This document shows positions 17,130 through 44,220 of a DNA stretch of 64,000 nucleotides, one piece after another. Both the position numbers and the translations under genes were made by a program. Under the pieces are notes generated by a model. The model did not search any database. It had not been told where the DNA came from and saw only the letters and a program-made list of their open reading frames with translations. Origin of the DNA: Selenomonas ruminantium subsp. ruminantium ATCC 12561 (GTDB lineage: Bacteria; Bacillota; Negativicutes; Selenomonadales; Selenomonadaceae); the NCBI RefSeq assembly GCF_000424065.1, contig NZ_AUJE01000001.1:62001-126000 (forward strand). Reading direction: 5' to 3'. Every line of letters begins with the position of its first letter. The first letter of the stretch is position 1.

Positions 17130-17335
17130 AGAGCAACCGAATAAAACTCCGAGCAAAAATATCTAAGGTTTATGATTTTGTGTGGCTATGATATTGCGCC
17201 GGGGCCCTGCTGGAAACGGCAGGACCTTCCATTTTGAAAAGGGGTATATTTTGATAGTGGTGGCTATGCCAACTGCCGGCGCAGTTGGCTGCATATCTGC
17301 GATTCCTGCAGATGTAGATGACAGTACACCAGGTG
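17130..17335 (+). promoter_or_regulatory. Probable molybdenum cofactor (Moco) riboswitch
   Basis: The leader of the molybdopterin operon. A TATAAT at 17116-17121 could be its -10. A strong helix joins TGCGCCGG (17195-17202) to CCGGCGCA (17276-17283). Inside it a hairpin (GGCCCTGC-TGGAAACG-GCAGGACC) is followed by CCTTCCATTTTGAAAAGGGG, which closely follows the CCUCCCGUAUCUGGAAAGG segment I recall from the E. coli moaA Moco RNA. The position just before molybdopterin genes, and the terminator that ends the leader, both fit. Class boundaries are approximate. High cofactor would be expected to reduce expression (family knowledge). Confidence 0.78.
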
Positions 17336-20653: not shown

Positions 20654-20659
20654 TTTTTG

Positions 20660-21595
20660 ATGGGGAAGATTCATGCACTGTGCACCAGCGAGAAAAAAGG
20701 GACGCTCAAAACCCAGCAGGATAAAGTGGTTTTTGTCACAGAATGGGGCATTAAAGGCGATGCTCATGCTGGCAAATGGCATCGGCAGGTGAGTTTTTTA
20801 GGCCTGCAGGAGATAGAGGATTTTCGTAAGTTAGGTGTAAAGGTGGAGTTTGGTGCCTTTGGCGAAAATATTGTGGCTGAGGGCTTTCGCTTTAAGGAAC
20901 TGCCTGTTGGCACTCGGCTGCGAGTTGGCGAAGTCTGGTTTGAAATCACCCAGATTGGCAAGGAGTGTCACAAGGGCTGTGCCATTCGTCAGCAGGTAGG
21001 TGATTGCATTATGCCCCGCGAAGGGATTTTTGGCCGGGTGCTGCATGGCGGCGAAGTCAAAGTGGGGGACGAATTGGAACTTGTCCCCAATGGAGAAAAA
21101 ATGCCGCTTGAAGCGGCAGTCATCACAGCCAGCGACAAGGGCAGCCGTGGTGAGCGTGTAGATGAAAGCGGCGCAAAGGTGGCGGAAATCCTTACGGTGG
21201 GCGGTTACACTGTAGTCGAAAAAATAATCCTGCCCGATGAGCAGGAACAGTTGGAAAATAAGCTGCTGGAATTGGCTGAACGCGGCATAGCGCTTATCGC
21301 CACCACTGGTGGTACAGGCTTTTCCCCGCGCGACATTACACCCGAAGCCACGCTGGCGGTCTGTGAGCGCTTGGCCCCCGGCATTCCTGAAGCCATGCGG
21401 GCCATGTCGCTGAAAATCACCGACAGAGCCATGCTCAGCCGTGCCCAGGCAGGCATTTGCCGCCGCAGCCTGATTGTGAACCTGCCCGGCAGCAAAAAGG
21501 CCGTAGAAGAATGTTTGGGCTTTATTTTGCCGCTACTCAAACATGGGATTGATATTCTGCGGGGAGAAACGGGAGAGTGCGGGCGGTTACAATGA
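20660..21595 (+). CDS. MOSC domain - MogA/MoaB fusion protein
   Basis: A 311-residue two-domain protein. Residues 1-145 form a MOSC domain (GKIHALCTSEKKGT, GDAHAGKWHRQVSFL, ITQIGKECHKGCAI, MPREGIFGRVLHGGEVKVGDEL) with the conserved cysteine in KECH. Residues 150-310 are a MogA-like molybdopterin adenylyltransferase domain (VITASDKGSRGERVDESG, IATTGGTGFSPRDITPEAT, IVNLPGSKKAVEECL). MogA adenylates molybdopterin for MoeA; MOSC domains handle sulfur or bind cofactor. It is the last gene of the operon, 6 bp after moaA, with GGAGG upstream of ATG 20660. Confidence 0.93.
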   Translation: MGKIHALCTSEKKGTLKTQQDKVVFVTEWGIKGDAHAGKWHRQVSFLGLQEIEDFRKLGVKVEFGAFGENIVAEGFRFKELPVGTRLRVGEVWFEITQIGKECHKGCAIRQQVGDCIMPREGIFGRVLHGGEVKVGDELELVPNGEKMPLEAAVITASDKGSRGERVDESGAKVAEILTVGGYTVVEKIILPDEQEQLENKLLELAERGIALIATTGGTGFSPRDITPEATLAVCERLAPGIPEAMRAMSLKITDRAMLSRAQAGICRRSLIVNLPGSKKAVEECLGFILPLLKHGIDILRGETGECGRLQ

Positions 21596-21603
21596 TATAC
21601 TAA

Positions 21604-21690
21604 GGCGCCCGCGGGACTGGCAATATGTTTCTTTCGCTTAGACAGGCTTGTCAAACGCTACGGAAACATACAGCCAGTCCCGCGGGCTTA
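21604..21690 (+). repeat. Conserved-core hairpin element, copy 1
   Basis: Perfect 15-bp outer arms (21607-21621 with 21673-21687), an inner 7-bp stem (ATGTTTC 21625-21631 with GAAACAT 21663-21669) and a core containing GACAGGCTTGTCAAA (21641-21655) flanked by TTTCGC and CGCTACGG. The core is nearly identical in copy 2 at 21.7 kb and, reversed, in copy 3 at 43.4 kb, whereas the arms differ. It lies 11 bp after the end of the molybdopterin operon, so it may also act as its 3' end. Confidence 0.8.
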
Positions 21691-21715
21691 GTGCGTGCAT
21701 TACAGCTATATGCAA

Positions 21716-21803
21716 AGGCGCCGCGGTGGCTGGTAATATTTTTCCTTCGCCATAGACAGGCTTGTCAAAAGCTACGGAAAAACATCACCAGCCACCGCGG
21801 CTT
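21716..21803 (+). repeat. Conserved-core hairpin element, copy 2
   Basis: Perfect 15-bp arms (21720-21734 with 21787-21801) of a different sequence from copy 1, an inner TTTTTCC/GGAAAAA stem (21739-21745 with 21776-21782) and the same core, GACAGGCTTGTCAAA (21755-21769). Both copies are preceded by AAGGCG. The spacing from copy 1 is about 113 bp. Confidence 0.8.
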
Positions 21804-21866
21804 TGTGCGATATGTATGTGGTTTATATCAGCTTGTTATGGTGCCTGATAATCAACTGAAAAATTG

Positions 21867-21911
21867 AATGCCAAAAGAACCGTCATAAGCTGTGACGGTT
21901 CTTTTGGCATT
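21867..21911. terminator. Bidirectional terminator between hairpin elements and RHH gene
   Basis: A perfect 19-bp inverted repeat (21867-21885 with 21893-21911) with a 7-nt loop, flanked by A/T-rich ends. It overlaps the last base of the minus-strand RHH gene and faces both directions. Confidence 0.75.
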
Positions 21912-22129
21912 TAATTATGTTGTTCGCCAACGACTTCGCTGTGTTCCAGTGCGAAATCCAAAAGCATACCAATTAATTCGTTGCGTGTACGTCCCGTGTC
22001 CTCTGCTAGTGCGTTAATTCGTTCCAAGGTATCGGTTTTTAATCTTACGGAGAAGACCCGGTAGCCATCATCGCCACGCAGTTTCTTTGTGATGAGAAGC
22101 TTGCTACTCATGTTATAAAGAAAATACAC
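21911..22129 (-). CDS. Small ribbon-helix-helix (CopG/Arc-like) DNA-binding protein
   Basis: A 72-residue protein whose core, [39 protein letters not shown], is a typical RHH fold: a beta-strand for DNA contact followed by two helices, with the GRTRNELI turn. Such proteins are antitoxins, plasmid or phage repressors, or small regulators. The start is uncertain: GTG 22129 or ATG 22111, neither with a good ribosome binding site. Its 5' end abuts a flagellin remnant on the other strand, so its original promoter may have been replaced by a rearrangement. No toxin gene is adjacent. Confidence 0.7.
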
Positions 22130-29641: not shown

Positions 29642-29732
29642 TGGCGGAGTGGGAGGGATTCGAACCCTCGCACCAGTTACCCGGCCTAACGATTTAGCAA
29701 ACCGTCCTCTTCAGCCTCTTGAGTACCACTCC
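29642..29732 (-). tRNA. tRNA-Ser (anticodon GCT)
   Basis: The minus strand folds as a class II tRNA: acceptor GGAGTGG (29732-29726) pairs with CCACTCC, followed by G73 and an encoded CCA (to 29642). The anticodon loop is TTTGCTAAA, giving anticodon GCT. There is a long variable arm and a GGTTCGAATCC T-arm. It reads AGC/AGU serine codons. Confidence 0.95.
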
Positions 29733-29735
29733 ATA

Positions 29736-29824
29736 TGGCGGAGAGGGTGGGATTCGAACCCACGCACCCTTTCGAGCCTACCGGTTTTCAAGACCGGACT
29801 CTTCAACCACTTGAGTACCTCTCC
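29736..29824 (-). tRNA. tRNA-Ser (anticodon TGA)
   Basis: A class II tRNA on the minus strand with acceptor GGAGAGG/CCTCTCC, anticodon loop TCTTGAAAA (anticodon TGA), a long variable arm, a GGTTCGAATCC T-arm and encoded CCA ending at 29736. It is separated from the downstream tRNA-Ser(GCT) by 3 bp, so the two share a transcript. Confidence 0.95.
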
Positions 29825-42726: not shown

Positions 42727-43386
42727 ATGTTAGTTTATGCAACCCATAAGGGGGGCAGATACTTGCCTTTGGAGGAAAGTCTTCGCGAACAGCCGGAAGG
42801 CAAGCGGAATCTTTATGTGAATATCACCAACGAGTGTAACTGTGCCTGCACCTTTTGCCTGCGCAATATGAAAAAGATGGCCGAAGAATCCAGCTTGTGG
42901 TTGAAAAAACGGCCCACCGTAGAAGAACTGAAAGCCGCGCTGGCTGCAGTTCCCTGGGAATATATCAAAGAAGTCGTGTTCTGCGGCTTTGGCGAACCGA
43001 CCATGCAGCTGGCTGTGCTTACGGAACTTCTCCATTATGTAAAGGAACAGCATCCGGAACTACCGACCCGCTTGAATACCAATGGTTTGGGTGAACTGGA
43101 ATACGGCCGGGAAATTGCCGAGGATTTTCAGGGGATTCTCGATACCATCTCCATCAGCCTTAACGCCTCCAATGCGGAGCGTTATTACGAGCTGACCAGG
43201 GCAAAATACGGCCTGAAATCCTATGAGGCTATGCTGGATTTTGCCGAACACAGCAAGAAATATGTGCCTAATGTGGTACTGACCATTGTGGACAAGGTCG
43301 AAGGACCTGAGGAAATTGCCAAATGTCAGGCCATTTGCGACGCCCGGGGACTGACATTGCGGGTGCGTCCTTACGAAGACAGCTGA
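42727..43386 (+). CDS. Radical SAM protein (TatD-associated type)
   Basis: A 219-residue radical SAM protein with the cluster motif NECNCACTFCLRN (CxxxCxxC), VFCGFGEPTMQLAVL for SAM binding and RLNTNGLGELEYGR. It most resembles the small radical SAM proteins often found beside tatD; no tatD gene is present here. The product is unknown. It is followed by copy 3 of the conserved-core hairpin. Confidence 0.82.
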   Translation: MLVYATHKGGRYLPLEESLREQPEGKRNLYVNITNECNCACTFCLRNMKKMAEESSLWLKKRPTVEELKAALAAVPWEYIKEVVFCGFGEPTMQLAVLTELLHYVKEQHPELPTRLNTNGLGELEYGREIAEDFQGILDTISISLNASNAERYYELTRAKYGLKSYEAMLDFAEHSKKYVPNVVLTIVDKVEGPEEIAKCQAICDARGLTLRVRPYEDS

Positions 43387-43397
43387 TATGGTAAATT

Positions 43398-43474
43398 AAA
43401 GGAGCGGTACAACCTTTTCTGCAGCGTTTGACAAGCCTGTCAAAGCGAAAGAAAAGGTTATACCGCTCCTTTTG
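43398..43474. repeat. Conserved-core hairpin element, copy 3 (between convergent genes)
   Basis: Arms of 23 bp with one mismatch (43398-43420 with 43450-43472) enclose TTTGACAAGCCTGTC (43427-43441), the reverse complement of the core in copies 1 and 2. Flanking core bases (AGCG on one side, GCGAAAGAAAA on the other) also match on the minus strand. It lies between convergent genes and ends in a T run, so it can act as a bidirectional terminator. Confidence 0.82.
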
Positions 43475-43497: not shown

Positions 43498-44220
43498 TCA
43501 GTCATCACTCATATTGCTGATGGTCAACAGCAAGTCAATGCAGCGTACATAGAGCCAGACGAGCGTAATCAGCAGGGAGAAGGCACAGTACCATTCATAA
43601 TCCTTGGGCAGTCCCTGTGCAACAGCCTCCTGAATCTGATGGTAGTCGATAAAGAGGCAGGCCGTAGCAATGCCGATGATCAGCAGGTTGATGCCAATGC
43701 CAATCAGGCCGCCATCCATAAAACCGAAATCCACGCTGAAGAAGTAGGACATCACAAAGCGCAGCAGATAGGCCAGCAGCAGCCCCATTAAGGCAATGGT
43801 AACGCCCTTGGTGAACTTGCCATCTACTGTAATCCAGCCCTGGCTGAACACCAGCGCAGCCGCAATGGCGATGGTAAAGGTGAGCAGTACAGCCTGAATG
43901 ACGACACCGGGCAGGAACGCCTCAGCAATCATGGAGAGCATGGCAATGGAGGCACCTTCAAAGATGGCAAAAAGCGGTGAGATAAAACCGGCGGTCTGCG
44001 GCTTGAAGCTGACGATAAAGGTCATAATCAGACAGCCTACACAAGCAACGCCCGTAGTAACCATCGTGGCATAGCCGCTGACAATGGTGGCGATTGCTGA
44101 ACCAGCGACCAACAGCACCATCAGGATTTCCTTCATCGCAATGCCGGAATAACTGGCCGCTTCCGACATGAACGCCCCATGGCTGAGGTCTTGTACTTTA
44201 CCGAGCATAGGATTTTCCAT
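43498..44220 (-). CDS. Bax inhibitor-1/YccA family membrane protein
   Basis: A 240-residue protein with seven hydrophobic segments. The family pattern is seen in KPQTAGFISPLFAIFEGASIAMLS and ALVFSQGWITVDGKFTKGVTIALMG, and the C-terminal part has the acidic residue set of the BI-1 calcium-leak fold (LFIDYHQIQEAV). BI-1 proteins conduct Ca2+ or protons and modulate membrane proteases in bacteria. It has its own transcription unit, convergent with the radical SAM gene. Confidence 0.88.
   Translation of the reverse strand: MENPMLGKVQDLSHGAFMSEAASYSGIAMKEILMVLLVAGSAIATIVSGYATMVTTGVACVGCLIMTFIVSFKPQTAGFISPLFAIFEGASIAMLSMIAEAFLPGVVIQAVLLTFTIAIAAALVFSQGWITVDGKFTKGVTIALMGLLLAYLLRFVMSYFFSVDFGFMDGGLIGIGINLLIIGIATACLFIDYHQIQEAVAQGLPKDYEWYCAFSLLITLVWLYVRCIDLLLTISNMSDD

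Follow-up and report, generated by a model that had tools for sequence, protein, structure and literature searches.

The question raised by this locus is why three hairpins that share a core, and whose outer arms differ in sequence while still pairing, recur at gene ends, and whether the matching of their arms reflects selection on an RNA or copying of DNA. "The window" denotes the whole stretch of 64,000 nucleotides that was analysed. The three hairpins described in an earlier note were found in place and their stems were confirmed by folding against shuffled sequences. They are listed here with their neighbours.

20657–21595, plus strand: gene upstream of the first array, its stop codon lying before the array; the C-terminal half matches a molybdenum cofactor synthesis domain of the MoaB/Mog type (TIGR00177, above cut-off)
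21607–21687, plus strand: A-type hairpin, copy 1, core 21641–21655; family member by sequence and fold
21720–21801, plus strand: A-type hairpin, copy 2, in tandem to copy 1, core 21755–21769; by sequence and fold
21866–21912, no strand assigned: separate plain hairpin downstream of the first array with T-rich ends on both strands, unrelated to the family
42727–43386, plus strand: TatD-associated radical SAM protein gene (TIGR04038, above cut-off), its end 12 bp short of the third hairpin
43398–43472, minus strand: third copy, a symmetric hairpin with the same apex, core 43427–43441; by sequence, fold, and orthologs with and without the core
43498–44220, minus strand: convergent gene on the far side of the third hairpin; open reading frame and our own gene call

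Copy 1 folded with -53.3 kcal/mol (z -8.0), copy 2 with -47.6 kcal/mol (z -7.3) and the third copy, on the minus strand, with -47.4 kcal/mol (z -10.7); none of the shuffled sequences folded as stably as any of the three. The cores of copies 1 and 2 lie 114 bp apart, and an unpaired GCG foot stands directly outside the stem of copy 1. The third copy sits between convergent genes, has an A-run and a T-run outside its stem, and carries no RCG foot. The plain hairpin at 21866–21912 is likely to be an ordinary bidirectional terminator candidate outside the family. A Moco (molybdenum/tungsten cofactor) riboswitch (Rfam RF01055, 61 bits) was found on the plus strand at 17135–17260, preceding a run of genes that is closed by the MoaB/Mog-type gene in front of that first array, and two neighbouring tRNA genes lie on the minus strand at 29645–29824.

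A repeat family and its distribution

The window hairpins are members of an uncatalogued palindromic repeat family with well over a hundred copies. The pattern GACARGCTTGTCAAA has 133 exact copies in the genome from which the window comes, as against 0 for the reversed pattern, and GACAGGCTTGTCAAA occurs exactly 96 times in its 3.39 Mb; about 140 of the copies in this genome were extracted together with their flanks. The A-type consensus reads (T)ACATCG..GTGCTAAG-RCG-(variable stem of about 13-17 bp)-A·C/AT/A·C-TTTTTCC-TTCGCYATA-GACARGCTTGTC-AAAAGCTGC-GGAAAAA-...-(stem)-CTTAGTGCGTACA, with a stem of ~25 bp and a conserved apex of ~38 nt. The unpaired RCG foot, AAG-RCG in the consensus, was present in 119 of 132 copies from this genome and reads CGYC on the complementary strand in most A copies (A in 59, G in 52).

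The apex is conserved and asymmetric, and the arms differ from copy to copy. The core had been described earlier as fixed; a common apex was indeed found in all three window copies, but across the family the core occurs in linked variants. CCATA went together with AAAAGC in 175 of 177 cases, CGC-TKA occurs with AAACGCT, TGC-TTA with AAACGCG or AAACGCT, and CAC-TTA with AAACGT. Besides the A type there is a B-type hairpin with GGAGGGG arms and CCGAAAG, and a symmetric form with outer A/T runs is found at convergent gene pairs, among them the third window copy and L063:15186. The same fold with different apical stem-loops, for example GACGCAAGCGTC, was seen in G126, G016 and G080 (L090, L091, L103-L105); these are sister families in relatives.

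Exact cores were found in 9 of the 22 genomes of the genus, at 133 to 5 copies each, so the further copies that the earlier note proposed to look for in relatives are many. The exact core was absent from all 167 other genomes of the order that were searched, and viral contigs gave no match to the core pattern. Among the matches listed, the named genome records with the core were Selenomonas ruminantium only, most of them rumen MAGs. The family is clade-restricted and occurs in some S. ruminantium-type rumen bacteria. A weak match of the family model in another genus (G010, L093) was rejected as an unrelated GC-rich hairpin. At the gathering score, Rfam gave no match over the hairpins of the window, and at a permissive E-value copies 1 and 2 returned sub-threshold hairpin look-alikes and nothing credible. 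No description of such repeats in Selenomonas was found in the part of the literature covered.

Placement, orientation and locus histories

The location at gene ends reported for the window hairpins holds for them and for the family. A hairpins stand singly or in head-to-tail tandem arrays with a spacing of ~113-125 bp, and arrays start shortly downstream of a stop codon, with a median of 18 bp from that codon to the position 45 bp ahead of the core. No copies were found within called genes; the genes were called with a codon score of our own making, and individual cases may be wrong. Between co-directional genes, 94 A copies were in sense orientation and 5 in antisense. Another 55 lie between convergent genes, and divergent gaps hold just 4, although 117 of the 580 intergenic gaps in those loci are divergent; 14 further clusters contain A copies in both orientations. 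Single-polarity arrays containing both types numbered 32, and in every one of them the B hairpin, which often closes the array, was inverted relative to A. With A polarity this strict, either the transcribed strand is of consequence or the insertion was directed to one strand, and the sense direction leaves room for a role of the transcript.

Most hairpin sites are common to close relatives, so movement is slow or past. Differences in presence were losses, apex collapses or larger replacements, and the few emptied sites that were compared showed no clean insertion with target duplication. At site 1, collapsed feet alone remain in G060 and G143, and the counterpart of the third window copy in G135 (L141) is a stem without the core. 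The G099 copy opposite L063:6341 and L202:13271 has kept both arms and lost the apex symmetrically; apex loss is recorded in L250 and L141. The orthologous apex in L244 is flipped relative to its arms when set against L207:10742, a change expected if the two arms of a palindrome recombine. Tandem unit number varies as well, from 2 in L067 to 3 in L205 and L275, and paired transversions separate L045 from L262 and L206 from L274.

A block swap was observed between L063:12011, in the genome of the window, and L202:18950 of G137, whose outer arms are alike and whose inner ~45 nt, including the core variant, are exchanged. Several of the genomes are draft MAGs, in which repeats can be mis-assembled; an assembly error is unlikely at L063:12011 because G135 (L302) and G122 (L100) show the same difference from this copy.

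Covariation and its source

The claim that the arms vary and stay complementary passed the statistical test overwhelmingly. In 39 divergent copies, 97.5% of cells were paired, compared with 74.7% in shuffles, and 21 of 27 pairs had changed on both sides. The covariation score was 0.592 versus 0.148 in shuffles (0/500 shuffles reached it), and slid controls gave at most 0.138.

Covariation had been taken in the earlier note as the sign of selection at the RNA level, and this reading was not supported. Selection on an RNA accepts G·U and rejects A·C. In the outer stems of 370 hairpins, counted outside the conserved internal A·C position, 4838 pairs were Watson-Crick; of the rest, 97 were G·T, 93 were A·C and 167 were mismatches of other kinds, so that G·U was no commoner than A·C and no wobble preference was seen. 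The stems of tRNAs from the same loci (all acceptor, anticodon and T-stem positions) served as a control and gave 30 G·U against 2 A·C (Fisher p 1.5e-6 versus the hairpins), a contrast that is somewhat inflated, since tRNA finding favours well-paired stems. Of the two marks of an RNA-selected structure, then, covariation was found and greater tolerance of G·U than of A·C was not.

Comparison of orthologs pointed the same way. When 56 loci of this genome were each compared with one ortholog, 47 double changes were still Watson-Crick, 16 of them by transversion, beside 80 one-sided changes; ~0.4 double changes would be expected under independence. A larger set of 202 ortholog pairs, which are non-independent, gave 185 double and 338 single changes, and among the singles A·C (146) was not rarer than G·T (90). 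Twenty-eight hairpins had at least 2 paired changes: both inner arms were found exactly at another locus in 12, and neither inner arm in 8, consistent with both gene conversion and hairpin-templated correction being at work. The equality of G·U and A·C, together with the paired transversions, block swaps, apex flips and apex losses in orthologs, weakens the RNA-selection reading and favours DNA copying. We take the covariation to come mainly from copying of DNA between arms and between copies rather than from RNA selection.

Nature of the family and rival readings

We consider it probable, though well short of certain, that these are clade-restricted long extragenic palindromes, REP/BIME-like, whose arms are matched at the DNA level and which enter the transcript as 3'-UTR hairpins. 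Quasipalindromes are known to become more perfect palindromes through template switching (PMC7202029). Probably while it is being replicated, a DNA strand of the repeat would extrude a hairpin or cruciform, and one arm could then be the template by which the other is corrected through quasipalindrome template switching. Inner blocks would be traded between copies by gene conversion, and the two processes together would keep the arms matched while their sequence drifts. The 3'-UTR hairpins into which the repeats may be transcribed would probably shield or trim mRNA 3' ends; given the polarity, the transcript is a likely candidate for the seat of function, and the sense polarity exceeds what a parasite acting on DNA only would need. 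Family size and specificity, polarity, equal mismatches, paired ortholog changes, block swaps, apex losses and the flip, and differing unit numbers all count for this reading. Against it stand the 8 of 28 multi-change hairpins without a donor copy, and the ortholog counts are not fully independent. Covariation is normally accepted as proof that an RNA is functional; a family in which strong covariation bears the marks of DNA-level copying therefore serves as a caution and a test case, in which the G·U versus A·C test tells RNA selection from DNA-level copying. Negativicutes would moreover have a large family of extragenic palindromes that is strictly polar and lacks a RAYT, which bears on how such repeats spread and on their role at mRNA 3' ends.

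The broad features of REP/BIME repeats were found here, namely palindromes in high copy number that stand in the intergenic DNA behind genes and combine direct with inverted units. REP/BIME elements with their RAYT (TnpA-REP), of the GTAG super-family, likewise lie downstream of genes, between co-directional and convergent ORFs, in direct and inverted arrays, and have an unpaired foot and internal mismatches (PMC3733652, PMC8266576). However, GTAG REPs are units of 20-50 nt with GTAG at the 5' foot, where the Selenomonas family has a ~25 bp stem, a ~38-nt conserved apex and an AAG-RCG foot (PMC8266576), and the gene-sense polarity of the A type is near-absolute. RAYT-REPs also have a cognate Y1 (HUH) transposase, normally flanked by the repeats; because several carriers lack any Y1/RAYT transposase, the family is not a RAYT-REP, and the agent of its dispersal is not obviously an enzyme of this kind. 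CGTC-tagged REPs are likewise gene-end palindromes without a dedicated transposase, and their tag resembles the CGYC of the complementary foot, but their stems of 8-9 bp, loops of 4-5 nt and mostly alpha-proteobacterial distribution (PMC3733652) differ from a far longer hairpin with an internal conserved apex; the stem length of about 25 bp rules this class out. REPINs, which come nearest in spirit, are also long palindromes with frequent two-sided compensatory changes; they conserve the outer REPs and vary inside (PMC3116915), whereas in the Selenomonas family it is the apex that is conserved and the arms that vary. Pneumococcal BOX, RUP and SPRITE elements are likewise clade-limited, modular, structured and interspersed, are now slow-moving, and are co-transcribed with their neighbours (PMC3049150), where for the Selenomonas family transcription is inferred; going by the descriptions, the latter is set apart as one self-complementary hairpin in tandem with an inverted closing copy. 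MITEs have terminal inverted repeats common to all copies and a target-site duplication, while the Selenomonas arms differ between copies.

A structured mRNA 3' element, with an apex bound by a protein or RNA and a stem selected on the transcript for stability, 3' processing or attenuation, is unlikely but deserves some weight. It would account for the gene-sense polarity, the site right behind stop codons, the conserved asymmetric apex with its linked variants and the very stable fold; it does not sit well with the absence of the wobble preference seen in the tRNA control, with one-sided ortholog changes in which A·C is not rarer than G·T, with the paired transversions, block swaps and flips, or with the many sites at which relatives have nothing or a collapsed remnant. 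We think it very improbable that the repeats are plain intrinsic terminators sharing a loop. Their gene-end location would fit, and so would the third copy and L063:15186, both of them symmetric hairpins bordered by A and T runs where two genes converge. Most A copies, however, are followed by TTAGTGCG instead of a T-tract: 56 of 329 had at least 6 T among the first 9 nt past the stem, and for lack of a U-tract most A copies are not plain terminators. The tandem occurrence and common ~38-nt apex also speak against this reading, as do terminators that stand at the same site in relatives and lack the ~38-nt apex. The earlier suggestion of a structured terminator is accordingly unlikely for A copies, and the third copy could be one.

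Two readings invoke mobility. That the repeats are non-autonomous and were mobilised by a transposase which recognises hairpin structure (RAYT/IS200-like or another), now lost or unrecognised, with polarity reflecting strand-directed insertion, seems rather improbable. High copy number, patchiness within the genus, the inverted and tandem arrays, the unpaired foot and internal mismatches like those of E. coli REPs (PMC8266576), and IS200/IS605-type Y1 transposase genes in the genome of the window suggest it; but Y1_Tnp (PF01797) was absent from the carriers G099 (one contig), G060, G126 and G135, no dedicated gene with hairpins on both sides was found, and no clean insertion with a target duplication turned up. 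A Y1 mobiliser is compatible with these results only if the enzyme was lost. We give somewhat more credit, while still doubting it, to an undescribed kind of structure-recognised mobile hairpin, with a non-Y1 agent, strand- and gene-end-directed insertion, only the apex and fold conserved, and hairpin-templated rewriting of the arms. If it were true, continual arm rewriting would yield strong RNA-like covariation without RNA selection.

An autonomous element was also sought among eight hairpin-flanked ORFs, which, judged from their first residues only, resemble ordinary host genes, none of them a transposase. Multi-copy IS200/IS605-like transposase genes were seen in L071 and at contig ends of G000; most are cut off by a contig end, so these genes probably break the assembly.
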